Shown piece by piece: positions 1,615 through 27,714 of a DNA stretch of 41,462 nt. Below the pieces are notes generated by a model. The model was given only the letters and a program-made list of their open reading frames with translations, did not search any database and was not told the origin of the DNA. Location of the stretch: contig JAJRSX010000036.1 in NCBI GenBank assembly GCA_024278555.1, positions 1-41,462 of the forward strand. The letters run 5' to 3'. The stretch's first letter is position 1, and every line of letters begins with the position of its first letter. This stretch comes from a bacterium (GTDB lineage Bacteria; CG2-30-53-67; CG2-30-70-394). The position numbers and the translations under genes were made by a program.

Positions 1615-2062
1615 CGGGTGGGGGCATCTCCCTTGCTTCGATGGCGTGATGCGGGGGACGCGGGTATCGGGGGTGGGCCGCGGCGTTCGGGTATCGGGTA
1701 GGAGGGGGTTGAACCCCCAATCCGCACCGTTGGTGGGGCAGCCTCTACGGGCCTGGTTCGCGGGCGCAACCGCTCCTACCCACCACCTTTCAGGTGGCTC
1801 ACGATCCTGGTCTTATCACCGACGACACCGGTGACATCGACCGGAAAATGTTGAAGCGACAATTATGGATCCAATGGTCTCCCTCGTCGTCTTGGTCGAC
1901 AACCGGTGGCGCGATTCGGTCGACCGGGGTGGGGGAGGGGAGCGGCGCCGATCGGGCGGCTTGCGGGCAAGTGGTTGGTATCTCTGGCTTCGTCCCCGAT
2001 GCGCCGGGTTGGCACACCGGTTGCTTTAGGGAGCGCAGAGGGTGCAACCACGAGAGACCGCC
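1615..2062. other. 448-bp spacer with a palindromic repeat and no gene
   Basis: This holds the 1696-1781 inverted repeat described separately and otherwise unremarkable sequence with a somewhat lower GC content. Open frames crossing it on either strand do not resemble proteins. A promoter for the next gene would have to lie in its right half, but I see no clear -35/-10 or -24/-12 pair. Confidence 0.5.
1696..1781. repeat. 86-bp palindromic dispersed repeat (GTAGGAG family)
   Basis: The left arm GGGTAGGAGGGGGTTG pairs with the right arm around CAACCGCTCCTACCC, and the left arm carries its own small hairpin GGGGGTTGAACCCCC. Related half-copies occur at 3221-3246 and, inverted, at 28728-28768. 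The shape is like REP-type extragenic palindromes built on GTAGGAGCGGGCTT in other bacteria. Confidence 0.7.
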
Positions 2063-3127
2063 ATGAAGCCCACCGCTAACACCGCCGCTGCCTTGCCGTG
2101 TCCCGGTTCCAGTGGGACCGCGTCGACACTGGCGGACCTGCTCTCCACCTTCGAGAGCGAGGCGCCGTCGCCGGCGGACGTGGCGTGGGTAAGCGAGCTC
2201 CGTGCCCGCCTCGCCCGCGACCCGAACGATGAAGAGGCGGTCGCGGCGCTGGCCGGCCCGCGGTTTCTCGCTCTGTGCGACAGCCTCCACATCTCCCCTG
2301 AGGCGGGACGGGAGCGGCTCTTTGCCTCTCTCCCCGCCGACCCCTCCCCCTCCCCTCCTGGCGAGGACGACCCGTCCTCCCCTCCTCCTGCGGCCGTCCC
2401 CCGGGGGGGGTCGGGGTTCCAGCGCGGTGGTCGCCTCGTGGTCGCCGTGGTCGCGGTGGCGGTGATCGGCGCCGCCCTCTATCTCTTGCCGGTGCGCGAG
2501 TGGCTCCTCGCCTTTTTGTCGTGGAGCCGTGGCGTCGGCGTCTGGGGGCCTCTCTCCCTCGCCGCGGTCTACGTGGTGGCGTGTGTCCTGCTGCTCCCCG
2601 GCTCCATCCTCACCCTCGGCGCCGGCTTCGCCTTCGGGCTGCTCCCGGGGATCGCGGCGGTGATGGCCGGCTCGGTGGCCGGCGCCGCCGCCGCCTTCCT
2701 CCTTGGCCGCACCGTGGCGCGCGGCTGGGTGGGGCCGCGGATCGCCGCCCACCCGCGCTTCGCCGCCATCGACAAGGCGGTGGCAAACCACGGCTTCAAG
2801 ATCGTCCTGCTCCTGCGTCTCTCCCCGATCTTTCCCTTCAACCTCCTCAACTACGCCCTTGGGGTGACCCGCGTCTCCCTGCGGGACTACGTCCTGGCAT
2901 CGTGGATCGGCATGGCGCCGGCGACGGTGATGTACGTCTACCTCGGCACCGCCGCCGGTTCCCTGGCGGAGATCGCCGCGGGTGGCGGTGGCGGCGGCGG
3001 GGCCAAGCTCGCCATGCTCCTCGTGGGGCTGGCCGCGACCGTGGCGGTGACCGTGGTGATCACCCGGATTGCCAGGCGTGCCTTGGCGGAGGCGGTCGAG
3101 GAGCAGGGGGTGGGGGATGAGGGATGA
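2063..3127 (+). CDS. TVP38/TMEM64 (VTT/DedA-like) inner-membrane protein
   Basis: A 354-residue membrane protein. The first 120 residues are soluble and proline-rich near residues 95-125. A transmembrane segment follows (VVAVVAVAVIGAALYLL), then the VTT domain with LPGSILTLGAGFAFG, a Gly/Ala-rich re-entrant stretch and the diagnostic LLLRLSPIFPFNLLNYALG, ending in two more hydrophobic segments and a poly-Gly turn. VTT proteins are lipid scramblases or transporters in the membrane; a specific substrate cannot be read from sequence. It stands directly before a mercuric-reductase-like flavoprotein and an arsenosugar gene set, a neighbourhood TVP38 genes often occupy. I chose ATG 2063 over an in-frame GTG at 2042 because it is an ATG with a purine-rich stretch before it. 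The N-terminal extension is long for the family. Confidence 0.88.
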   Translation: MKPTANTAAALPCPGSSGTASTLADLLSTFESEAPSPADVAWVSELRARLARDPNDEEAVAALAGPRFLALCDSLHISPEAGRERLFASLPADPSPSPPGEDDPSSPPPAAVPRGGSGFQRGGRLVVAVVAVAVIGAALYLLPVREWLLAFLSWSRGVGVWGPLSLAAVYVVACVLLLPGSILTLGAGFAFGLLPGIAAVMAGSVAGAAAAFLLGRTVARGWVGPRIAAHPRFAAIDKAVANHGFKIVLLLRLSPIFPFNLLNYALGVTRVSLRDYVLASWIGMAPATVMYVYLGTAAGSLAEIAAGGGGGGGAKLAMLLVGLAATVAVTVVITRIARRALAEAVEEQGVGDEG

Positions 3128-3355: not shown

Positions 3356-4888
3356 ATGATCCCCCCGACCATTGTCACCCCTGAGCCGCCCATCATCGAC
3401 GCCCATGACCAGGAGCTGGTGGCCAACGTCCACCCGCCGGAGTGGGACAACCCGAGCCCGGCACCGCGCTACAACCTGGTGGTGGTGGGGGGCGGTACCG
3501 CCGGCCTGGTGGCGGCGGCGGGCGCCGCCGGTCTCGGGGCGCGGGTCGCCCTGATCGAGCGTGGTCGCATGGGCGGTGACTGTCTCAACTACGGCTGCGT
3601 CCCCTCCAAGGGGATCATCCGCGCCGCCCGTGCCGCCGCCGATGTGCGCGACGCCGCCACCTTCGGGGTCGAGATCGACGGCCAGGTGCGGGTCGACTTC
3701 GCCGCCGCCATGGAGCGGATGCGTCGCCTGCGCGCCGGGATCAGCCACCACGACTCGGCGCGTCGCTTTCGCGAGCTCGGCATCGACGTCTTCCTCGGCC
3801 AGGCGCGCTTCACCGGCGCCGACACGGTCGAGGTAGGCGGCTCCACCCTGCGCTTTGCCAAGGGGTGCATCGCCGCCGGCGCCCGCGCCGTGGCCCTGCC
3901 GATCCCGGGGCTCGCCGAGGTCGGCTTCCTCACCAACGAGTCGGTCTTCTCCCTCACCGAGCTGCCGCCGCGGCTGGCGGTGATCGGCGGCGGGCCGATC
4001 GGCTGTGAGCTCGCCCAGTCCTTCGCCCGCTTCGGCGCTCGCGTCACCCTCCTGGAGGTGGGCGAGCGGATCCTGCCGCGTGGGGAGGCGGACGCCGGGG
4101 CACTGCTCCACGAGTCGATGACCAACGACGGGGTGCGGATCCTCACCGGGGTGCGGATCGACGCGGTGGCCGCCGTCGACGGTGCCAAGGAGGTCCGGAT
4201 CGCCGTCGACGGTACGGCTGAGACGGTGGCGGTGGACGACATCCTCGTCGGCGTCGGCCGGGCCCCGAACGTCGAGGGGCTCGACCTGGAGGCGGCCGGG
4301 GTGGAGTACGACACCCGCCGCGGGGTCCACGTCGACGACCACCTGCGCACCACCAACCGCCGCATCTTCGCCGCCGGTGACATCTGCTCCGCGTTCAAGT
4401 TCACCCACACCGCCGACGCCCAGGCGCGCATCGTCCTCCAGAACGCCCTGTTCAAGGGGCGGGCGAAGAACAGCGCCCTGGTGGTGCCGTGGTCGATCTA
4501 CACCGACCCGGAGATCGCCCACGTGGGGCTCGACGAGGCCGAGGCGCAGGCGCGCGGCCACAAGACCACCACCTTCACCCAGCCCCTGGAGGAGGTGGAT
4601 CGCGCCATCCTTGATGGGGAGGCGAGGGGCTACGCGCGCATCGTGGTGGAGCAGGGGACGGACCGTATCCTCGGCGCCACCGTGGTGGCGCGCCACGCCG
4701 GCGAGATGATCAGCGAGGTGACCGCCTTGATGGTCGCTGGCAAGGGGCTCGCCACCCTGGCCAAGGTGATCCACCCGTACCCAACCCAGGCCGAGGCCCT
4801 CAAGCGCCTCGGCGACGCCTACAGCCGCACCCGCCTCACCCCCCGCGTCGCCCGCTGGATGGCGCGTTGGCTGGCGTGGACGCGGTAG
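3356..4888 (+). CDS. FAD-dependent pyridine nucleotide-disulfide oxidoreductase (mercuric-reductase-like)
   Basis: A 510-residue class I flavin disulfide reductase. The FAD-binding Rossmann motif is GGGTAG near residue 45, and the redox-active pair is C76/C81 in GGDCLNYGCVPSKG. A second NAD(P)-binding fold has VIGGGPIGCELAQ, the second FAD motif is IFAAGDIC, and the dimerisation domain ends in the HPYPTQAEALK signature. It lacks the N-terminal HMA domain and the C-terminal Cys pair of true MerA, so 'mercuric reductase' is only a database habit; the electron acceptor is unknown. The 40-residue leader with NVHPPEWDNP before the FAD fold is typical of the subgroup that travels with TVP38 genes. 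The start is ATG 3356, with no clear ribosome-binding site; repeat sequence lies immediately upstream. A role in thiol or metalloid redox for the downstream arsenosugar-type genes is inference. Confidence 0.93.
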   Translation: MIPPTIVTPEPPIIDAHDQELVANVHPPEWDNPSPAPRYNLVVVGGGTAGLVAAAGAAGLGARVALIERGRMGGDCLNYGCVPSKGIIRAARAAADVRDAATFGVEIDGQVRVDFAAAMERMRRLRAGISHHDSARRFRELGIDVFLGQARFTGADTVEVGGSTLRFAKGCIAAGARAVALPIPGLAEVGFLTNESVFSLTELPPRLAVIGGGPIGCELAQSFARFGARVTLLEVGERILPRGEADAGALLHESMTNDGVRILTGVRIDAVAAVDGAKEVRIAVDGTAETVAVDDILVGVGRAPNVEGLDLEAAGVEYDTRRGVHVDDHLRTTNRRIFAAGDICSAFKFTHTADAQARIVLQNALFKGRAKNSALVVPWSIYTDPEIAHVGLDEAEAQARGHKTTTFTQPLEEVDRAILDGEARGYARIVVEQGTDRILGATVVARHAGEMISEVTALMVAGKGLATLAKVIHPYPTQAEALKRLGDAYSRTRLTPRVARWMARWLAWTR

Positions 4889-4905
4889 AACTAGGAGAAG
4901 GTGCG

Positions 4906-6018
4906 ATGTCGTTTTTCAACGCAAAGACGCAAAGGCACGAAGGCGCAAAGGGGTGGAGCGCCCACACGGTGGAGTCCCCGGTGGCATGGAGGGGGTTCCG
5001 GCGTGGTCTGGAAGGCGGTTCACCACGGGGGGGGTGGGGGCAGATGGGTCCGGCTGCCTTCCTCCACTTCATCGCAAACGAGCCACCTTCGCGGAGACGA
5101 CGGACGTCGCCGATGGTCGAGACGTCCGCAAGCCCCTTCGCGCCTTCGTGCCCTTGCGCCTTTGCGTTGAAGACGGCCAGCCACCTTGCCCCAGCCGAGC
5201 CACATCGACGCCGTGCGCTCGGCGCCCATTTGCGTGCATTCGCGGCCCTGCTCTTCTTGCTCTTCGCCTCCGTCGCCGAGGCGGCGTCGACCTGTGACCG
5301 GCCGCTCTTGGAGCCGGCGGCGGGCTCCGGGATCCACGCGCCGTGGGACGGGCTGGTGCGCTCCTTCGTCCACGACGGGGTGGTGGACTACGGCTGTTTG
5401 CAGGCGCACGAGGGCCAGCTCGACCGCTATCTGGCGCTGCTGGCCGCGATCAAACCCGAGCGGCTGTCGCGCGACGCGCAGCTCGCGGTATGGATCAACG
5501 GCTACAACGCCTTCACCGCGAAGCTGATCCTCCGCCGCTACCCGCGGATCCGCTCGATCAAGGAGATCCCCCGGCGGTGGAAGCTGCGCGACTGGACCGT
5601 GGGGGGCAGGCGGTACTCCCTGGACGAGATCGAGAACAAGGTCCTGCGGGCCAAGTTTCACGAGCCGCGCATCCACTTCGCGATCAACTGCGCCTCCAAG
5701 TCGTGTCCCGACCTCGCGAGCGCGGCGTACGTCGCCCCCCGTCTCGACGCCCAGCTCGACGAGGCCGCCCGCCGCTTCCTGCGCCACCCGGGCAAGGGGT
5801 GCCGCCTGGCGCACGAGAGGGGTCTCTTCGGTGCGCGAGAGAAGCTGTATCTTTCGCCGATCTTCAAGTGGTTCCGTCCCGACTTCGAGGGCAACCAGAC
5901 CCTCATGGCCTTCCTCGGACCCTACCTGCCGGAGGCGGTACGCACCGAGGTGGCGGCCCTGGGCTCGGACGTGGCCATCGACTACCTCAAGTACGACTGG
6001 AGCCTGAATGGAGGGTGA
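4906..6018 (+). CDS. DUF547 domain exported protein; 5' end built from a repeat element
   Basis: From about residue 127 this is a normal DUF547 protein: VWINGYNAFTAKLIL, then FAINCASKSCP with the presumed catalytic Cys, and a C-terminal YDWSLN. The fold is related to papain-like enzymes; no substrate is established. A signal peptide (RAFAALLFLLFASVAEAA) is encoded at about 5233-5286, so the mature protein begins near 5287. The start is the odd point. ATG 4906 has a strong AGGAG at 4893-4897, but the next 110 codons are translated inverted-repeat DNA (4917-5253). A TTG at 5230 would give 262 residues, the usual family size, but has no ribosome-binding site. I annotate from 4906, as the only start with good signals. 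The next gene starts 10 bases after the stop, so the two are probably cotranscribed. Confidence 0.82.
   Translation: MSFFNAKTQRHEGAKGWSAHTVESPVAWRGFRRGLEGGSPRGGWGQMGPAAFLHFIANEPPSRRRRTSPMVETSASPFAPSCPCAFALKTASHLAPAEPHRRRALGAHLRAFAALLFLLFASVAEAASTCDRPLLEPAAGSGIHAPWDGLVRSFVHDGVVDYGCLQAHEGQLDRYLALLAAIKPERLSRDAQLAVWINGYNAFTAKLILRRYPRIRSIKEIPRRWKLRDWTVGGRRYSLDEIENKVLRAKFHEPRIHFAINCASKSCPDLASAAYVAPRLDAQLDEAARRFLRHPGKGCRLAHERGLFGAREKLYLSPIFKWFRPDFEGNQTLMAFLGPYLPEAVRTEVAALGSDVAIDYLKYDWSLNGG
4917..5253. repeat. MITE-like inverted-repeat element, copy A
   Basis: The left arm (4917-4951, CAACGCAAAGACGCAAAGG and onward) and the right arm (5134-5171) are near-perfect reverse complements over about 37 bases. 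Outside the right arm lies a second module (about 5200-5253, CATTTGCGTGCATTCGCGG) shared with copies B and C. The internal stretch TCTGGAAGGCGGTTCACCACGG matches the internal hairpin of copy C. It overlaps the annotated 5' end of the DUF547 gene. Confidence 0.85.
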
Positions 6019-6028
6019 GGCAGCACCT

Positions 6029-6850
6029 ATGCGCATCGCGGTGGTCATCCCGACCCTCAACGAGGAGGGGCGGCTTCCGGCCTGCCTCGCCGCCCTCGCC
6101 CGCCAGCCCGGACCGATCGAGGTGGTGGTCGCCGACGGCGGCTCCACCGACCGGACCCGCGAGGTCGCGGCGCGTTTCCCGGGCGTGCGGGTGGTGGTGT
6201 CGGAGGCGGGGCGCGGCCGGCAGATGAACGCCGGCGCCCGCGCCACCACCGGTGCCTACCTCTGGTTCCTCCACGCCGACTGCCTGGCGGCCGCCGGGGC
6301 GGCCTCGATGGTCCGCCGCTGCCTCGCCGACGAGGCGACCACCCTCGGTGCCTTCCGCTTCGCCCTGGATAGCCGCCGGTGGCGCTACCGGATCGTCGAG
6401 GCGGGGGTCCGCCTGCGCTGCCGACTCTTTTCTCTGCCGTACGGTGATCAGGGGCTCTTCCTCCGCCGCGCCGCCTTCGAGGCCCTCGGCGGCTATCGCG
6501 AGGAGCCCCTCTTTGAGGACCTCCACCTGGTGCGCGCGGCGCGCGCCGCCGGCCGGGTCGTCTGTTTGCCGCACCCGCTACCCACCTCGGTGCGCCGCTG
6601 CCGCCGCGACGGCGTGGTGCGGACCACCGTGCGCAACCAGCTCCTCCTGCTCGGTGAGCGGCTCGGCGTGGCCCCGGCGGTGCTCGTGCGTCTACGTGAG
6701 CCCGGTATGCCCGCGGCAGAGATGTCGCCGGCGGTACACGGTGGCTACGGTGGCGACCTAGATGGTCAATCCACCACAGAGATGGGATATGGAAGGGCAC
6801 AGAGGACTGCATCGGAAGGACTCTCTCTCCCTAGCAGTGGCTCAGATTGA
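6029..6850 (+). CDS. Family 2 glycosyltransferase, arsenosugar type (TIGR04283)
   Basis: A GT-A fold glycosyltransferase of about 273 residues. It opens with RIAVVIPTLNEEGRL, has the nucleotide-binding VVVADGGSTDRT, and then the subfamily signature GRGRQMNAGA followed by LWFLHADC. FFDQG-like YGDQGLFLRR and the acceptor loop EEPLFEDLHLVRAAR are also present. Proteins of this type are called 'rSAM/selenodomain-associated transferase 2' or arsenosugar glycosyltransferases and travel with the DUF2064 partner found here at 9725. ATG 6029 is preferred over an in-frame ATG at 6008 because GAGG at 6017-6020 is well placed and homology begins at once. The last 30 or so residues look like translated repeat DNA (CACAGAG repeat at 6771-6814), so the original C-terminus was probably shorter. 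Confidence 0.92.
   Translation: MRIAVVIPTLNEEGRLPACLAALARQPGPIEVVVADGGSTDRTREVAARFPGVRVVVSEAGRGRQMNAGARATTGAYLWFLHADCLAAAGAASMVRRCLADEATTLGAFRFALDSRRWRYRIVEAGVRLRCRLFSLPYGDQGLFLRRAAFEALGGYREEPLFEDLHLVRAARAAGRVVCLPHPLPTSVRRCRRDGVVRTTVRNQLLLLGERLGVAPAVLVRLREPGMPAAEMSPAVHGGYGGDLDGQSTTEMGYGRAQRTASEGLSLPSSGSD
6771..6814. repeat. Half-copy of the CACAGAG dispersed repeat
   Basis: CCACCACAGAGATGGGATAT and the following GGGCACAGAGGACTGCAT match the inner arm of the 25807-28133 repeat element (25971-26004) in order and spacing. It overlaps the 3' end of the glycosyltransferase frame and has no inverted partner nearby. Confidence 0.6.
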
Positions 6851-6965
6851 TGACGGCGCCGTAGTGGTTGGAGATTCGCATACCTGTATTTGGAGACCCC
6901 ATCTTTTTGTTTTTCCACCGAAGACAACTTGTCATTGCTGGTTCGACAACCTTCAGGAGTCGTTG

Positions 6966-9416
6966 ATGAAGCTTGATGCCACCACCCCCCTCCACGCCCC
7001 CACCCTGCACGTGGAGCAGCGCGGCGATGCCTTTGTGGTCATCGACCCGGCAGGACCGAACTGGGCCGCCACCGACCGGCGCGGCGCGGAGCTCCTCACC
7101 TCCCTGAACGGCGGCACGCCGTTCGGGGCGTTGGTGGATCGGTACCGGACCGCCCACGACGTGGATCCGGTGAAGGCGTACCACCACGTCGCCACCCTGG
7201 TGGGCGACGGTCTCCGTCACGGCCTGCTGGCCACCGAGTCGGTGGCGGCGGAGATGTACGCCGGTCGCGCCGCCCACCTCGTCGATGCACCCCTGGAGGA
7301 GGTGTGGCTGCACACGAACAACTCCTGCAACCTCGCCTGTAGCCATTGCCTCGTCTCCTCCGGCCCGGATGGCGATTTCGGCCTGCCCACGGTCCAGTGG
7401 CTGTCGGTGATCGCCCAGGCGCGGGTCCTGGGGGCGCACCGCTTCTACCTCACCGGCGGCGAGCCCCTCATCCGCCCGGACGCGGTGGAGCTGGCGCAAG
7501 CGATCCTCGGCGACCCGGAGGCGGAGCTCGCCATCCTCACCAACGGCATCCCCCTGGTCGGCAAGCGCCTCGCCGCCCTCGCCTCCCTCGACACCGCCCG
7601 CCTCCGACTCCAGGTCTCCGTCGACGGCGCCACCGCCGCCACCAACGACATGGTGCGCGGCAAGGGCGCCTTCGACGCGGCGGTGGCGGGGATCCGCAAC
7701 GCGGTCGAGGCGGGGCTCGCGGTGACCCTCACCACCGTGGTGACCGCCGGTAACGCGGACGAGGTGGCGGCGGTTACCCGCCTCGCCGGTGAGCTTGGCG
7801 TGCGCCACCACCACCTCTTGTGGATGCACCGCCGCGGCCGCGCCCTGGTGGACGCCGCGCCGCCGGTGGCCAGGGTGATCGAGGTCGCCCGCGAGGCGGT
7901 GGCCGCGGGCCGTGAGAAGGGGGTGACGGTGGACAACCTGGAGGCGGTGAAGCAGCGCCTCAACTATCCGGCCGGTGTCCGGCGCGACCTCTCCAACGCC
8001 TGCGTCACCTCCCTGTGCGTCGCCTGGGACGGCCGCTGCTTCCCCTCCGCCTCTACCGCCGGCGAGGAGGCCCTCTGCCTCGGCTCGATCGCCGACACCC
8101 CGCTCGCCGAGCTGTGGCGCGACAGCGCGGTGGCCAAGCGGTTCCGCGGGGCCACGGTGGAGGACAAGCCCCAGTGTGTCGGCTGCCCCTTCAAGTACCT
8201 GTGCGGCGGCGGCGACGTGGAGCACAGCTACTTCTGGGGCGGCGACCTGCTCGCCGACGACCCGTACTGCGAGCTCCACCAGGCCCTCATCCGCGACGCC
8301 CTCTTCGACCGCGCGGCCGAGCGCAAGGTGCTGCACACCAACGGCCGCTCCGGCTTTGACGCGCCCCTGCTCTACACCGCCATGGGCGAGGGCTCCATCC
8401 ACTGCGCCACCGCCGAGGCGATCCCGGAGGTCGCCGTCTCCCACTCGGAGTGCGTCGTCTCCTTTGACCTCGACGCGCCGCGGGAGAGGGTGCGCGAGTT
8501 CTACGGCGAGGCAGCCGAGGCGCCCCAGGAGGATCTCTGCTGCCCGGTCCGGCCGGATCCCGCCGACATCGACCACATCCCGCGGGAGGTAATCGACCGC
8601 TTCTACGGCTGCGGCTCACCCATCGGCGCCGCCGCGGTGCAGCCGGGGGAGACGACCCTGGATCTCGGCTCGGGCGCCGGCATCGACGTCTTCACCGCCG
8701 CCAAGAAGGTGGGGGCTGAGGGCAGGGCGATCGGCGTCGACATGACCGACTCGATGCTCGCGGTGGCGCGCGAGTACCAGCCGCAGGTGGCGGCCAACCT
8801 CGGCTTCGACGTGGTCGACTTCCGCAAGGGGTACCTGGAGGAGATCCCGGTGGAGGCGCGCTCCGTGGACCTGGTCACCTCCAACTGCGTGATCAACCTG
8901 TCGCCGGACAAGAAGCGGGTCCTGGCGGAGATCTGGCGGGTCTTGAAGGACCACGGCCGGATGGTGATCTCCGACATCGTCGCCGAGGAGGCGGTGCCGC
9001 CGGAGCAGCGCCGGGACCCGCGCCTCTGGGGCGAGTGCATCTCCGGCGCCCTCACCGAAGATGAGCTCCTCGCGTTTTTGGAGCGGGCCGGCTTCTACGG
9101 CATCGAGTGTCTGTCGCGCAGCTTCTGGAAGGAGGTGGATGGGTACCGCTTCTTTTCGGTGACCGTGCGCGCCTACAAGTACGAGAAGCGCGAGGGGTGC
9201 GTCTTCATCGGCCAGTGGGCCACCTACGTGGGGCCGTACAAGGGGGTCTCCGACGAGGAGGGCCACTTCTTCCCCCGCGGCACGGCGGTGGAGGTGTGCA
9301 CCGACACCGCCGCCAAGCTTTGCCACCCCCCCTACGTCGGCCAGTTCGTCGTCACCGACCCCGACGGCGAGACCATCGGCACCCCATGCTGCGGGCCTGG
9401 GGGGAGCTGTTGCTGA
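6966..9416 (+). CDS. PqqD-like / radical SAM / SPASM / ArsM-like methyltransferase fusion
   Basis: An 816-residue multidomain enzyme. Residues 12-90 resemble a PqqD-type peptide-binding domain. The radical SAM core follows with C121/C125/C128 (CNLACSHC) binding the catalytic 4Fe-4S cluster and GGEP at 164-167 for AdoMet. Residues 346-435 hold the auxiliary-cluster cysteines of a SPASM-like region (C346, C351, C358, C371, C404, C407, C413, C435). Residues 500-737 are an arsenite-methyltransferase-like domain: DLCC at 523-526, FYGCGSP, LDLGSGAG, VDMT, and the two ArsM cysteines in SNCVINLSPDKK (C641) and ECISGAL (C691). A Cys-rich tail ends in CCGPGGSCC. The start at ATG 6966 has AGGAG at 6955-6959; upstream codons are not protein-like. 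Flanking TIGR04283 and TIGR04282 genes point to arsenosugar-type chemistry, with As(III) as the likely but unproven substrate. Confidence 0.9.
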   Translation: MKLDATTPLHAPTLHVEQRGDAFVVIDPAGPNWAATDRRGAELLTSLNGGTPFGALVDRYRTAHDVDPVKAYHHVATLVGDGLRHGLLATESVAAEMYAGRAAHLVDAPLEEVWLHTNNSCNLACSHCLVSSGPDGDFGLPTVQWLSVIAQARVLGAHRFYLTGGEPLIRPDAVELAQAILGDPEAELAILTNGIPLVGKRLAALASLDTARLRLQVSVDGATAATNDMVRGKGAFDAAVAGIRNAVEAGLAVTLTTVVTAGNADEVAAVTRLAGELGVRHHHLLWMHRRGRALVDAAPPVARVIEVAREAVAAGREKGVTVDNLEAVKQRLNYPAGVRRDLSNACVTSLCVAWDGRCFPSASTAGEEALCLGSIADTPLAELWRDSAVAKRFRGATVEDKPQCVGCPFKYLCGGGDVEHSYFWGGDLLADDPYCELHQALIRDALFDRAAERKVLHTNGRSGFDAPLLYTAMGEGSIHCATAEAIPEVAVSHSECVVSFDLDAPRERVREFYGEAAEAPQEDLCCPVRPDPADIDHIPREVIDRFYGCGSPIGAAAVQPGETTLDLGSGAGIDVFTAAKKVGAEGRAIGVDMTDSMLAVAREYQPQVAANLGFDVVDFRKGYLEEIPVEARSVDLVTSNCVINLSPDKKRVLAEIWRVLKDHGRMVISDIVAEEAVPPEQRRDPRLWGECISGALTEDELLAFLERAGFYGIECLSRSFWKEVDGYRFFSVTVRAYKYEKREGCVFIGQWATYVGPYKGVSDEEGHFFPRGTAVEVCTDTAAKLCHPPYVGQFVVTDPDGETIGTPCCGPGGSCC

Positions 9417-9431
9417 ACCAGTTGATAGACG

Positions 9432-9705
9432 GAGCCGCGAATGGACGCACATGGTCTGGCGTCGAACGGGCTGACAGCAGGGCGGCCTTTAACGCAAAGG
9501 CGCAAAGGCACAAAGACGCAAAGAAAAAAGGAGAGAGACGAGGGCTGGGGTGTCTCGGTGGTCGGATCGGAAACAACCATCCATCGCACCCCCGATCGTC
9601 CCTGCTGTTCCTTTGCGCCTTTGCGTTGAAATCGGTTTATCGCGCGGTCTCCCTCAACCACGTTTGATGCCGTGTGATTTGCGTCTATTTGCGGCTAAAT
9701 CCTAA
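9432..9705. repeat. MITE-like inverted-repeat element, copy B (most complete)
   Basis: Nested inverted repeats. The outer left arm GCCGCGAATGGACGCACATG (about 9433-9452) plus CGTCGAACG pairs with the outer right arm ending TTTGCGTCTATTTGCGGCTA (about 9679-9698). The inner left arm at 9488-9524 (AACGCAAAGGCGCAAAGGCA) pairs with the inner right arm at 9610-9630 (CTTTGCGCCTTTGCGTTGAA). It begins 16 bases after the stop of the radical SAM fusion gene. No transposase is encoded. Confidence 0.88.
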
Positions 9706-9724
9706 AGAACACCATTGCATCGCT

Positions 9725-10471
9725 ATGACGGACGAGGCACTCCTCCTCTTTGTCCGATTCCCCGAACCGGGGCGGGCGAAGACGCGGCTGATCCCGGCGC
9801 TCGGTGCCGAGGGGGCGGCGGCTCTCTATCGGCGGATGGCCACCGAGGTGGCGGCGGAGGCGGGGCGGCTGGTGCGGACCGGGCTCGGCCATGTGGCGTT
9901 GGTGGAGCCTCCCGAGCGGGTGGCGGCGGCGGGGCGGTGGCTTGGGTCGCCGTGGCAGACCCGAGCGCAGGCGGCCGGTGACCTCGGCGCGCGCCTCGCC
10001 GCCGCCTTCGACGATGCCTTTGCGGCCGGTGCCGAGCGTGTCGTGGCGATCGGCACCGACTGTCTCGACCTCGACGCCGACCTCCTTGGCCTGGCCCTTG
10101 ACCGCCTCGCCGACCACGACGCGGTCGTGGGGCCGGCCACGGATGGCGGCTACTACCTCCTCGGCCTGAGCCGACCGGTGGCCTCCTGCTTCGAACAGAT
10201 CCCGTGGTCCACGTCCGAGACCCTAAGGGTGACCCGCGCCCGCCTCGCCGCCGCCGGCTGCACCGTGGCGGAGCTTCTAGAGCTTCGCGACCTCGACACC
10301 CCGGACGACCTCGCCGCCCTCGCCCCGCAGTGGGGCAGGCGGCTGGGGATTCAACGCAAAGGCGCAAAGAGGCAAAGGCGCAAAGAGGGTGGGCAGGGGC
10401 GAGGGGAGGTGTCATCGGCGGCTGGAACGGAGCCACCTGTCGGCCTGGAAGGCCTTTCACCCCTGTGGTGA
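9725..10471 (+). CDS. DUF2064 nucleotidyl/glycosyl-transferase-like protein, arsenosugar type (TIGR04282)
   Basis: A 248-residue protein with a GT-A-like nucleotide-binding fold. The N-terminus has LLFVRFPEPGRAKTRLIPALG, the middle has the metal-binding VVAIGTDCLDLDADLLGLAL, then DAVVGPATDGGYYLLGL and IPWSTSETLRVTRARL, all hallmarks of the 'rSAM/selenodomain-associated transferase 1' family. With the 6029 glycosyltransferase and the radical SAM fusion it completes the arsenosugar-type gene set; its reaction is not established. ATG 9725 is the start because homology begins there; sequence upstream is the right end of repeat copy B. Residues from about 209 to the end are encoded by repeat copy C, which appears to have inserted at the 3' end and replaced the native C-terminus. 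All recognisable family motifs precede that point, so the enzyme may be intact. Confidence 0.92.
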   Translation: MTDEALLLFVRFPEPGRAKTRLIPALGAEGAAALYRRMATEVAAEAGRLVRTGLGHVALVEPPERVAAAGRWLGSPWQTRAQAAGDLGARLAAAFDDAFAAGAERVVAIGTDCLDLDADLLGLALDRLADHDAVVGPATDGGYYLLGLSRPVASCFEQIPWSTSETLRVTRARLAAAGCTVAELLELRDLDTPDDLAALAPQWGRRLGIQRKGAKRQRRKEGGQGRGEVSSAAGTEPPVGLEGLSPLW

Positions 10472-14637: not shown

Positions 14638-16236
14638 ATGGGAGGAGGTGTGCCACAGGAGTTTCACGACTCACACCACGGCCTCGGCTTTCTGGCCGCG
14701 GTCCTCGACAGCATCGACGACGCGATCGTCGTCATCGACCGGCAGTTCACCATCCGCTGGTCCAACCGCGCCTTCCGGCTGGAGACCGGGAGGGGCAGGG
14801 GGGAGGTGGTGGGGAGCCGGTGTCACGAGGTCTCCCACCACCTGGACAGACCGTGTGACGAGCATGGCTCCTCCGGTGCCGGGGGACACGCCGGCGACTG
14901 TCCCATCAAGGAGGTCTTCGCCACCGGTCTGTCGCAGGAGGTGATGCACACCCACTACGACGGCGACAACAAGCCGCGCTACGTGGAGATCAAGGCGTAC
15001 CCGGTGCGGGGCGGCAGCGGTGAGGTCGACTACGCCATCGAGGTGATCAAGGACGTGACCCAGCGGGTCCACCTGGAGGAGGAGCTGCGCCACGCCCAGA
15101 AGATGGAGGCGGTGGGCCTCCTGGTGGGCGGCGTGGCCCACGATTTCAACAACATGCTCACGGCCATCACCGGCTACGGGGAGCTGCTGCAGATCGACGT
15201 GGAGGAGGGGAGCACGGTCCACCTGGCGGTGGAGGAGATCCTCTCGGCGGCCGAGCGGGCCACCCGTCTGACCCGCAGCCTCCTCGCCTTCAGCCACAAG
15301 GTGCGGACCGAGGTCGGGGTCGTCAATCTGAACGAGATCCTTCGCTCCATCGACAAGCTCCTGCGTCGCATCCTGGGGGAGGACGTGGTGTTCGACGTCT
15401 CTCTGCAGGAGGGGGAGATCCCCATCCTCGCGGATCGCTACCAGATCGAGCAGGTGGTGATGAACCTCGCCGCCAATGCGCGCGATGCCATGGCCGCCGG
15501 CGACCGCTTCGCGGTGGCCACCGAGGTGGCAATGTTCACACGGGAGGAGGCGTACGTGTGCGGCCTCACCGACAGCGGGAGCTACGGCATCCTCTCGGTG
15601 AGCGACACGGGCACGGGGATCGATGAGGAGACCCGCGCGCGCATCTTCGAGCCCTTTTTCACCACCAAACCACGGGACAAGGGGACCGGTCTCGGCCTCT
15701 CCATGGTCTCCCGGATCGTCGCCAACCACGGCGGTCAGGTCTCGGTGGAGAGCCGCCAGGGGCTCGGGACGACCTTTCGTATCATCCTGCCCCTGTGGCA
15801 GGGAGATCCGGTGGAGCTGTCCCGGCCGGAGGTCGACGAGGAGGCCCTGCCCGTGGGGGCGGGCGAGACCATCCTGGTGGGCGAGGACGATGTCGCCGTG
15901 CGCCGGCTGCTGGTACAGATCCTGGAGGCGTACGGGTACCAGGTGGTGGTCGCCCGCAACGGTGCGGATGTGCTGGCAAATTGCCGTGAGCGGGGGGACG
16001 GGATCGACCTCTACATCCTCGACGTGGTGATGCCGGGCAAGGGGGGGGAGGCGATCCTTCGCGACATTCGCCTGATGCAGCCGGCGGCGCGGGTGCTCTT
16101 CGTCAGCGGCTACCCCGAGGAGGTCCTCTTCCAACGCGGTTTCCCGACCGCCGAGAACGCCTTGCTGGTAAAGCCCGTTTCGCGTGCCGTCCTGCTGCGC
16201 AAGGTGCGGGAGATGCTCGGTGCCCGTGTCGGGTAG
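14638..16236 (+). CDS. Hybrid histidine kinase, PAS-HisKA-HATPase-receiver
   Basis: A 532-residue soluble hybrid sensor kinase with no transmembrane segment. Residues 15-140 are a PAS domain with an unusual Cys/His cluster (C62, H66, C73, C88 within CHEV, RPCDE and DCPIKEV), a variant that recurs in deltaproteobacterial kinases. The dimerisation/phosphoacceptor box GGVAHDFNN has H168, and the ATPase domain has [26 protein letters not shown] and GTGLGLS. The C-terminal receiver (about 410-530) has GEDD, D462 in LDVVMPG and the Lys in LVKPVS. There is no output domain, so signal must pass to another phosphotransfer or regulator protein. ATG 14638 is the first start in frame. The next gene overlaps the stop by 17 bases, implying translational coupling within an operon driven from 14508. 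Confidence 0.93.
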
Positions 16237-17863: not shown

Positions 17864-19801
<1,938 letters not shown>

Positions 19802-23847: not shown

Positions 23848-24822
23848 ATGAAACTGCCCATCGCTATTGCCCTCGCCGCCGCCGTGGGGCTCACGCCGGC
23901 CGCCGCGCGGGCGAACTACTACCACTATCACGAGATCGTCCTCGACAACGACTTCGTTGCCGGGACCCCCTCGGGCGGTTCGACCCACCAGTTTCAGTAC
24001 GCCGGCGAGGATGGCGGGCGGCTGATCCAGGCCGGCAACACCTACCAGGCGACCTTCTGGACGCCGACCGGTGGCCTGCCGCAGCCCACCGACTCCACTG
24101 ATCCGTTCCACTACGTGGCCGACCCGGGCGCGCCGACGAGCAATGCCCCGTATATCGCCAACCGGCAGGGTGATCTCTCCGCCGCCGGGCAGAGCGACTG
24201 GTGGATGCAGTGGAATCCGGAGGGCGCCACAGCCAAGGGCAACCTCAACTGGATCAAGCTCTATGTGTACGGTCAGAACATCGACCAGATGACGCTCCTC
24301 TCCGCCGACGGCCAATCGCTGTCCGGTGGAAAAACCACCACGAACAAGCCGTACGCCTCTACCGGCAAGGACTTCTACAACGGCCAGTGGCGGGACCCGT
24401 CGGATTCGAGCAAGGATCTGACCTGGTACGAGTTCAAGCTCTTCAAGGACCCGAGCCCTGACGGCTACCTCGCCGACTGGGACGACGCCGACTACGCCGA
24501 TCCCAACGCGGCTCCCGGCTACTTCTCTACCGATCGCACCGGTGGCGTGGGCTATGGTGGGGCCGGGTCCAACCTCCCCGGCGGGTATGACGCGGCGACC
24601 GGTAACGCCAACTACGACGAGTGGATCCACTTCGTGGCCGGGAACACCGGCAACTGGGACATCTACGCGGTCGCCCTGGAGGTGGACTACCTCGGCCTTG
24701 CCCCGACCAACCTGCCGAACAACCCGCCACCGAACAACGCGGTGCCTGAGCCCGCCACCCTCCTGCTCATGGGGATGGGGCTCGCGGGGGTGGTGCTGCT
24801 TCGCCGCCTGCGGCTCGCCTAA
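23848..24822 (+). CDS. PEP-CTERM sorting domain exported protein
   Basis: A 324-residue secreted protein with an N-terminal signal peptide (MKLPIAIALAAAVGLTPAAARA) and a C-terminal sorting signal: AVPEPATLLLMG, a hydrophobic helix (MGLAGVVLLRR) and a basic end (RRLRLA). Exosortase would cut at the PEP box and the protein is expected in the envelope or an exopolysaccharide matrix; no exosortase gene is in the window. The mature part is rich in Tyr, Asp, Asn and Gly with repeated NYYHYHE, DDADYADP and GYGGAGSNLPGG-like stretches and only aromatic, low-Cys content, as in beta-sandwich surface proteins. The ATG at 23848 has AAGGAG near 23834. A sigma-54 promoter precedes it and a strong terminator follows, so it is a single-gene unit. 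Function beyond sorting is unknown. Confidence 0.93.
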   Translation: MKLPIAIALAAAVGLTPAAARANYYHYHEIVLDNDFVAGTPSGGSTHQFQYAGEDGGRLIQAGNTYQATFWTPTGGLPQPTDSTDPFHYVADPGAPTSNAPYIANRQGDLSAAGQSDWWMQWNPEGATAKGNLNWIKLYVYGQNIDQMTLLSADGQSLSGGKTTTNKPYASTGKDFYNGQWRDPSDSSKDLTWYEFKLFKDPSPDGYLADWDDADYADPNAAPGYFSTDRTGGVGYGGAGSNLPGGYDAATGNANYDEWIHFVAGNTGNWDIYAVALEVDYLGLAPTNLPNNPPPNNAVPEPATLLLMGMGLAGVVLLRRLRLA

Positions 24823-26291: not shown

Positions 26292-27714
26292 ATGGTTTTG
26301 ACGCAAGGCGTGCTGTCTTTCAAGGTCGAGTTGGTTGCTGAGGAGAAGGAGTGGGTCACCGCCCGTGCCGCCTTACCGCTGGTGATCGAGGCAATGCGGA
26401 AGGTGATCCCGCGGACCACGTACCCACGGCTGGCGAAGGCACTGAGGTACGCCAGCGTGAGCCCGGTGCGGCGGGCGATCGAGAGTCTCGTGGCTCTGGT
26501 GGTGGCCGGCGGCGAGCATCTGAGTGATCTGGAGATCCTGCGCACCGAGACGGGGCTGACGGCGCTGCTGGGCTTTCGGATCATCAGCCCCAGTCAGGCG
26601 AAGAGCTTCCTCTACCGTTTCCACCAGAATGCAGAGGGGGGAGCGGCTGAGCGACCTGGAGGACGCCGCCTTGTCGCAGGCCGGCAAGGCGACGATTCGC
26701 CCGGAGGGGCCCGGGCTGAAGACGTTGGCCGAGCTGGTGAGCCAAGTGGTCACCGCCGTCCAACGGGTCACGCCGCAAACCCACGCCACGTTGGACGTGG
26801 ATGCCACGATCGTCGAGGCGCACAAGAAAAGGGCGTTGAAGGCGTACGAGGGGACGGTGGGGTATCAGCCGCAGATGGCCTACTGGGCCGAGACGCGGGT
26901 GTGGGTGGCCGACGAGTTTCGAGACGGCAATGTCCCGGCGGCCTACAAGGCCAAGGACCTCCTCCAGCGGGCGTTCGGGGCCCTGCCCGCGGGGGTGTCT
27001 ATGCGCTACCTGCGTGCGGACTCGGCCTTCTACGACGAGGCGGCGCTCACCCGGGCGGATGCGGCGGGGCTCCAGTTTGCCGTCTCCGCGGACATGAGCC
27101 CGGCGTTGTCGGCCGCCATCGCGGCGCTCCCGGAGACGGCGTGGCACCCCTACGCCGGTCGCGATGGCCGGTCCTCCGAGAGGGAGGAGCGCGAGTGGGC
27201 CGAGGTCGTCTTCGTCCCGAGCTGGGCGCGGAACTTCAAGAAGGAGGGCGTGGCCTTTCGCTACTTGGCCATTCGGGTCCGGCCGCGCCAGGGCGAGCTG
27301 TTTGATGCGGAGCCCTCGTGGCGCCACTTCGCGGTGGTGAGCAACCGGACCGGGGACGGGGAGACCCTCTTGCGGTGGCAGCGGGGCAAGCAGGGGACGG
27401 TGGAGCATGGCCATGGGGAGATGAAGAACGACCTGGGGGCGGGGGTGCTGCCGTGTGGTCGGTTTGGCGCCAACGCAGCGTGGTGGCGGCTCAACGTGGT
27501 GGCCTCCAACCTCTTGGCCTACCTGCAAGCGGGTGCGTTGCCGAAGGCGCTTGCCAAGGCACGCCCGAAGACCCTGCGGTTCTGCTTTTTCAACCTCGCC
27601 GGCCGGGTGATCCGTCACGCGCATGCCGTAGTGCTCAAGCTCTCGGCGGCCTTCCCCTATGCCCAGGACTACCTCCGCGCCCGCGCCTGGCTCGCCCGAG
27701 AAGCCGTGACCTAG
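26292..27714 (+). pseudogene. IS1380-family transposase, frameshifted
   Basis: The first part (ATG 26292, AGGAG at 26280-26284) encodes the N-terminal domain up to about 26637, including GLTALLGFRIISPSQAKSFLY. The catalytic part continues in another frame to 27714 with the DDE features LDVDATIVEAHKK, LRADSAFYD and HGHGEMKNDLGAG. The frames meet at a run of six G's (26636-26641); one G fewer would give a single frame of about 473 codons, the normal size for IS1380 transposases. A -1 slip would not join them, so classical programmed -1 frameshifting is excluded; a one-base insertion, transcriptional slippage or a sequencing error could each explain it. A downstream ATG at 26629 opens the second frame but lacks the N-terminal domain. 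Confidence 0.88.

Follow-up and report, generated by a model that had tools for sequence, protein, structure and literature searches.

A conserved protein that joins a radical SAM half to ArsM and appears to take the place of a separate arsenosugar enzyme

The locus and its joined reading frame

The window is the whole stretch of DNA that was analysed, at a length of 41,462 nucleotides, and comes from an uncultured bacterium. It carries a gene in which a radical SAM protein and an arsenite methyltransferase (ArsM) are joined in one chain, and the order of this gene and its neighbours is as follows.

2042-3127, forward strand: VTT-domain (TVP38-like) membrane protein (Pfam VTT_dom, 98.3 bits)
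3356-4888, forward strand: MerA/lipoamide dehydrogenase-like FAD oxidoreductase (NF004991, 786.9 bits)
4867-6018, forward strand: DUF547 protein (Pfam, 96.7 bits)
6008-6850, forward strand: glycosyltransferase of the TIGR04283 family, whose NCBI name refers to arsenosugar biosynthesis (224.9 bits, cut-off 182)
6966-9416, forward strand: fusion gene of 816 residues with RRE/PqqD-like, radical SAM, SPASM-like, linker and ArsM parts (sequence, Pfam, homologue alignment)
9674-10471, forward strand: protein of the TIGR04282 family, whose NCBI name refers to arsenosugar biosynthesis (197.1 bits, cut-off 134); an in-frame ATG at 9725 is possibly its true start

The open frame of the fusion extends over 6762-9416, and from the ATG at 6966 it encodes 816 residues that end in CCGPGGSCC. 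An extended form starting at 6762 was rejected, since it overlaps the upstream gene while the ATG at 6966 is preceded by an AGGAG ribosome site at a fitting distance. The starts of homologues with 46-84% identity to the window protein also align at or near the column of this ATG. An assembly or frame artefact was likewise rejected because the joined frame is kept in 16 distinct homologues; the 816-residue joined protein is real and conserved. A promoter scan found none, and terminator-like sites occurred at chance level.

Several additional features of the window were noted. Beside the fusion, at 9488-9630 and 10350-10386, a GCAAAGGC-type repeat recurs in copies that are partly inverted, and the exact 15-mer of this type occurs 31 times in the genome compared to 0 times in a reversed control. 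Two PAS histidine kinases that also carry receiver domains are encoded near each other (14638-16236 and 17864-19801), followed by a PEP-CTERM-bearing protein at 23848-24822 and a DDE transposase at 26629-27714.

We identified five full-length fusions in a scan of species genomes, from Nitrospirae CG2_30_70_394, Planctomycetota, Troglogloeales, Eisenbacteria and Nitrospirales. The genome that holds the window belongs to the same genus as Nitrospirae CG2_30_70_394. We also searched 386 genomes with a profile; these are sampled relatives with phyla unevenly represented, and 13 of them, from 9 families, carry the fusion. Two fusions were common to both searches, giving the 16 distinct ones. Two of these, on the stretches L119 and L120, bear an extra C-terminal domain.

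L119, 7303-10365: fusion with DUF5714, without the SPASM cysteines and the first ArsM cysteine pair
L120, 15-3110: fusion with DUF5714, without the SPASM cysteines and the first ArsM cysteine pair

A search of the 386 genomes for a split PqqD-radical SAM protein returned 25 matches at E ≤ 1e-38, and 13 of these were fused. The other 12, seven of which had their neighbourhoods inspected, sit in frames of merely 273-481 residues with far lower scores, and a stand-alone version was rejected on these grounds. A published description of the fusion was not found in the open-licence literature, and its absence in print is thus not established.

Domains and conserved motifs of the fusion protein

The full-chain predicted structure has a pLDDT of 82. 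The following parts were delineated in the window protein, all on the forward strand.

6966-7238, residues 1-91: PqqD/RRE-fold domain (model pLDDT 89, structure matches)
7278-7955, residues 105-330: radical SAM core (Pfam, structure comparison, alignment)
7326-7349, residues 121-128: CX3CX2C of the radical SAM core
Residues 164-167: GGEP of the radical SAM core (alignment)
7998-8333, residues 345-456: SPASM-like domain with Cys 351, 404, 407, 413 and 435 and GGGD at 414-417 (Pfam, structure comparison, alignment)
8334-8480, residues 457-505: inter-domain linker with Cys480 and Cys496 (alignment; mostly low pLDDT)
8481-9371, residues 506-802: ArsM domain including its normal C-terminal part, with Cys 525, 549, 641 and 691 (Pfam, structure comparison, alignment)
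9372-9413, residues 803-816: Cys-rich end, ...CCGPGGSCC (sequence, comparison with unfused ArsMs)

The initial annotation had read the chain as PqqD, radical SAM, SPASM and ArsM in that order, and Pfam together with predicted-structure matches bears this order out. In Pfam, Radical_SAM (69.9 bits, cut-off 29.5), SPASM (24.4 bits, cut-off 21.5) and Methyltransf_31 (107.1 bits, cut-off 27) passed, while PqqD (PF05402) scored 16.6 bits in the window protein, under its cut-off of 23.4, and passed in the homologue L118 with 27.5 bits. The PqqD-like assignment of the N-terminus had been left open to refutation by modelling. Modelled alone, this domain shows strands followed by three helices, which is the RRE fold, and its best structure matches were TbiB1 (Foldseek E 9.8e-4), PqqD 5sxy, TigE and lasso B1. 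The Z scores were 9.7 for TigE, 8.6 for TbiB1 and 8.5 for PqqD 5sxy, with the unrelated 8hkr also reaching 8.3.

Both CX3CX2C and GGEP are present in 16 of 16 aligned fusions. A SPASM domain with two auxiliary clusters uses seven cysteines as ligands. The SPASM-like part of the fusion holds five conserved cysteines, so it would accommodate one auxiliary cluster at most, and the plural clusters of the initial annotation are not borne out. Cys 404, 407, 413 and 435 are complete in 11 of the 16 fusions; L040, L114, L119 and L120 have none of them and L115 has one. Because the set is incomplete in five fusions, the auxiliary cluster seems to be dispensable.

The N-terminal 450 residues or so resemble CteB, TigE, SuiB and SkfB in predicted structure, all of them peptide maturases of the radical SAM/SPASM type with an RRE. 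CteB matches residues 12-453 (Z 30.4, rmsd 4.5, 414 aligned), and TigE matches residues 6-455 (Z 26.4, rmsd 3.2, 403 aligned). However, the fusion is 13-22% identical to these four proteins, is joined to ArsM, has fewer auxiliary-cluster cysteines and was found without a precursor peptide.

ArsM methylates As(III) with SAM. The top PDB matches of the C-terminal half were ArsMs, including 4fr0 and 5evj, and the ArsM structure 6cx6 matches predicted residues 522-802 with a Z score of 29.0. The curated NCBIfam cut-offs for ArsM were not reached (PRK11873, 229.2 versus 263; arsenosugar ArsM, 156.8 versus 400). ArsM membership has been described by at least three of four conserved cysteines, at 44, 72, 174 and 224 of CmArsM (available text of PMC5552862). 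All four are found in the window protein as C525, C549, C641 and C691, with the correspondence to CmArsM numbering carried over via CrArsM and family motifs. Retention of "both key cysteines" was therefore correctly noted in the initial annotation but counted too low. Across the fusions, Cys549, 641 and 691 occur in 16 of 16, and Cys525/526 in 14 of 16. The fusion thus has the fold, the four catalytic cysteine positions and the C-terminal domain in common with CmArsM and CrArsM. Unlike unfused ArsMs, its ArsM makes up the C-terminal part of a radical SAM protein and is preceded by linker cysteines. By alignment, Cys496 is present in 16 of 16 fusions and Cys480 in 14 of 16, and neither the Cys496 motif nor Cys480 was seen in the unfused ArsMs examined. 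The motif pattern misses six of the 16 fusions (L114-L118 and L120) owing to differing flanking residues, and the alignment is the better evidence.

What had been described as an 80-residue Cys-rich tail proved to be mostly the ordinary ArsM C-terminal domain with a short Cys-rich end. Residues of the window protein to approximately 800 align with CmArsM, and similar endings are found in unfused ArsMs adjacent to ArsS (CGPEGCC in L068, CCGPDGCC in L070). The tail is for these reasons an ArsM feature, and it was rejected as one specific to the fusion. The fusion L118 is without the ArsM tail.

Gene neighbourhood, co-occurrence and relation to ArsS

We compared the genes around the 16 fusions with those around ArsS and around control ArsMs. 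The VTT protein was found at 7 fusion loci, the DUF547 protein at 7, the FAD oxidoreductase at 6, TIGR04282 at 6 (with a weak match of 73 bits at L039) and TIGR04283 at 4, and some neighbours vary from one fusion locus to another. At least one of the five neighbour types lies beside 11 of the 16 fusions, a count that is partly by construction since the profiles were derived from fusion loci, with blastp clusters as the independent basis. The remaining five have none nearby, including L038 on a 6.1 kb contig. Ten hand-picked ArsS loci, each 6 kb or longer, showed the VTT protein in 6, the FAD oxidoreductase in 5, TIGR04283 in 5, the DUF547 protein in 3 and TIGR04282 in 3; at least one was present in 8, and none in L042, at a contig end, and L156. 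Among 16 control loci, whose stretches show an ArsM but lack both ArsS and the fusion, one had a neighbour (VTT, L051). These controls include the near copies L043 and L044 and some from genomes with ArsS elsewhere (L067), and they exclude L061, in which ArsM adjoins a TIGR04282 gene and a radical SAM protein of a third type. The neighbour gene set is common to fusion and ArsS loci. The arsenosugar names of TIGR04283 and TIGR04282 are themselves inferences.

Across the 386 genomes, ArsS was counted in 68 (E ≤ 1e-60), TIGR04283 in 109 (E ≤ 1e-30) and the fusion in 13. It was noted that TIGR04283 is present in 12 of the 13 fusion genomes compared to 97 of the 373 others (p = 1.6e-6), and in 58 of the 68 ArsS genomes. 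TIGR04283 and the fusion are on different contigs in 8 of the 12 genomes that carry both, and the sole fusion genome without TIGR04283 (G295) is 84% complete. Among TIGR04283 genomes, ArsS was found in 0 of the 12 with the fusion and 58 of the 97 without it (p = 5e-5). The same exclusion was obtained after collapsing to families (0/9 versus 45/68, p = 1.7e-4), which corrects for kinship in part, and with only TIGR04283 matches above the curated cut-off (p = 7.6e-5). When the whole sample of 386 genomes is considered, the lack of ArsS in the 13 genomes carrying the fusion does not reach significance (p = 0.14). TIGR04283 is not a strict marker, because 39 of its 109 carriers have neither ArsS nor fusion.

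A third, short radical SAM type (L061, 7363-8376; L160-L168; also L063) has relatives in 9 of the 386 genomes. Seven of these 9 genomes carry TIGR04283 and none carries ArsS or the fusion, a pattern which suggests that several solutions exist for the same pathway step. Removing this type leaves 32 of the 39 TIGR04283 carriers noted above. In G090 the third type adjoins ArsM and a TIGR04282 gene, and the G160 copy contains a TGA in frame.

ArsS (TIGR04167) resembles the fusion in having a radical SAM protein beside or joined to ArsM, similar neighbours and the same apparent slot in the pathway. The fusion differs in carrying GGEP where ArsS has GGAPE, in its RRE and SPASM-like domains and in lying outside the ArsS clade. 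Against the ArsS model, it scores 40.3 bits, under the cut-off of 300. In the radical SAM tree, 19 ArsS rows, comprising one in four of 39 ArsS proteins, with repeats dropped, and 10 from ArsS loci, fall on one side of a branch (100/100) with no fusion among them, and the fusions group with three small radical SAM proteins to make up a set of 19 (92/96). One common clade of fusion radical SAM proteins and ArsS as sister groups was not rejected (p = 0.54). A single origin of all fusions was also not rejected (p = 0.14), with L119 and L120 apart in both trees. In the ArsM tree, 14 fusion ArsM parts group (92/81) beside a lone Aquabacterium ArsM and apart from two groups holding ArsS-linked ArsMs, in a labelling that marks L043 as 'withArsS' where its stretch itself shows no ArsS. 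Because the trees place both halves outside the ArsS and ArsS-linked ArsM groups, the fused pair appears to form a separate lineage, as opposed to a standard ArsS that was recently fused to its partner ArsM.

The initial annotation regarded radical SAM proteins and ArsM as normally separate in arsenosugar pathways, in the form of ArsS and ArsM. This is not always the case, and ArsS-ArsM fusions were found in both orders.

L124, 9012-11000: true ArsS-ArsM fusion, ArsS first
L155, 5511-7472: true ArsS-ArsM fusion, ArsS first
L154, 5474-7303: true ArsS-ArsM fusion, ArsM first

These are single chains like the window protein, but they contain true ArsS and are separate from it in the radical SAM tree. 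Since they also exist, the joining of ArsM to a radical SAM protein recurs.

Proposed function and alternative readings

According to Cheng 2021, as cited in the available part of PMC12159101, ArsS adenosylates arsenic by radical chemistry, and the available part of PMC8552651 describes SsArsS and SsArsM as working together in arsenosugar synthesis. We consider it fairly probable that the window protein combines ArsM with a distinct ArsS-like enzyme and makes an adenosylated dimethylarsenical. The fusion, its domain identities and intact motifs, its ArsS-type neighbourhood, its co-occurrence with TIGR04283 and the absence of ArsS from genomes that carry it were all shown here by computation. 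The earlier proposal of ArsM and a radical step in one chain of an arsenosugar-type pathway is supported by the co-occurrence and neighbourhood, with the amendment that the radical SAM domain is not ArsS.

We infer the chemistry, the order of its steps and the passage of arsenic as follows. The ArsM half would bind As(III) via the family cysteines and methylate it, probably to dimethylarsenite. The radical SAM half, replacing ArsS, would reductively cleave a second SAM, and the 5'-deoxyadenosyl radical would go to arsenic to give a dimethylarsinoyl-5'-deoxyadenosine-type product. The TIGR04283 and TIGR04282 proteins, the DUF547 protein and the FAD oxidoreductase may then act on this product or support it. 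Direct passage of arsenic between the sites, via the invariant Cys496, is plausible, and this linker residue may act as the relay.

A different carbon-arsenic bond was also considered, in which the radical SAM half would perform, for example, a 3-amino-3-carboxypropyl transfer like that of ArsL in arsinothricin synthesis, yielding another organoarsenical. ArsL, paired with ArsM on one arsenic atom, transfers a different part of SAM (available part of PMC8552651). The radical SAM part of the fusion not being ArsS, and the differences between neighbours of individual fusion loci, also speak for such a reaction. The ArsL/ArsM system consists of two proteins in another operon and was likened here by description, not by ArsL sequence. 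We regard this chemistry as unlikely, as the neighbours and the ArsS exclusion indicate the same pathway slot as ArsS. That the protein carries out arsenic methylation only, with its radical SAM half serving an unrelated step or another metalloid within a general metal-stress cluster, appears highly improbable. The FAD oxidoreductase, VTT and DUF547 proteins are generic families as this would expect, but CX3CX2C is invariant, the halves stay joined in 9 families, the fusion is statistically associated with TIGR04283, and ArsS is excluded from it among TIGR04283 genomes.

The adenosyl-transfer reading leaves the RRE domain unexplained. In a RiPP-type enzyme, this domain would bind either a precursor peptide or part of its own chain, such as the linker or tail, which the radical SAM half would modify, for example into an arsenic-binding peptide served by ArsM. 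The resemblance to CteB, TigE, SuiB and SkfB and the conserved Cys480 and Cys496 speak for such an enzyme. However, in L037, L113 and L116 the frames on either side abut or overlap the fusion, so that a precursor gene would not fit there, the Cys-rich end is also found in unfused ArsMs, the surrounding genes match those at ArsS loci, and four of the 16 fusions (L040, L114, L119 and L120) retain 0-1 of the five SPASM cysteines. We judge this reading very unlikely; a peptide substrate is possible, and the gene context lends it no support. The initial annotation's alternative of a peptide or own-tail substrate is weakly supported, given the shared tail and these three loci.

It is also possible that the RRE domain binds an internal segment of its own chain. 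A self-loading assembly, in which it grips the linker and presents methylated arsenic on Cys496 to the radical SAM site, seems quite unlikely. If true, arsenic would stay on the chain between methylation and adenosylation, the RRE fold would deliver a metalloid and not a peptide, and there would be a radical SAM lineage forming carbon-arsenic bonds separate from ArsS.

On the preferred reading of an ArsS-like adenosylating enzyme, the fusion seems to substitute for the stand-alone enzyme with which other bacteria build arsenic-containing sugars. Genomes with the TIGR04283 glycosyltransferase and no ArsS look incomplete in annotation; the fusion would fill this gap in 12 of the 51 sampled genomes of this sort, and for another 7 the third radical SAM type may do so. 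If confirmed, organoarsenical synthesis would be wider than an ArsS search shows, extending, as far as records with named organisms go, into Nitrospirota, Planctomycetota and Eisenbacteria, and a single-chain enzyme would make the methyl-to-adenosyl hand-over directly testable.

Two further ArsM-like genes were noted in the window genome, at 540-1217 on the reverse strand of L002 and 1363-2040 on the forward strand of L003. Both have an in-frame TGA at the arsenic-binding cysteine (GECISGA site), and the genome holds a tRNA-Sec above cut-off (77 bits). These genes are probably selenoprotein methyltransferases of the UxxG kind described in the available text of PMC13188914.
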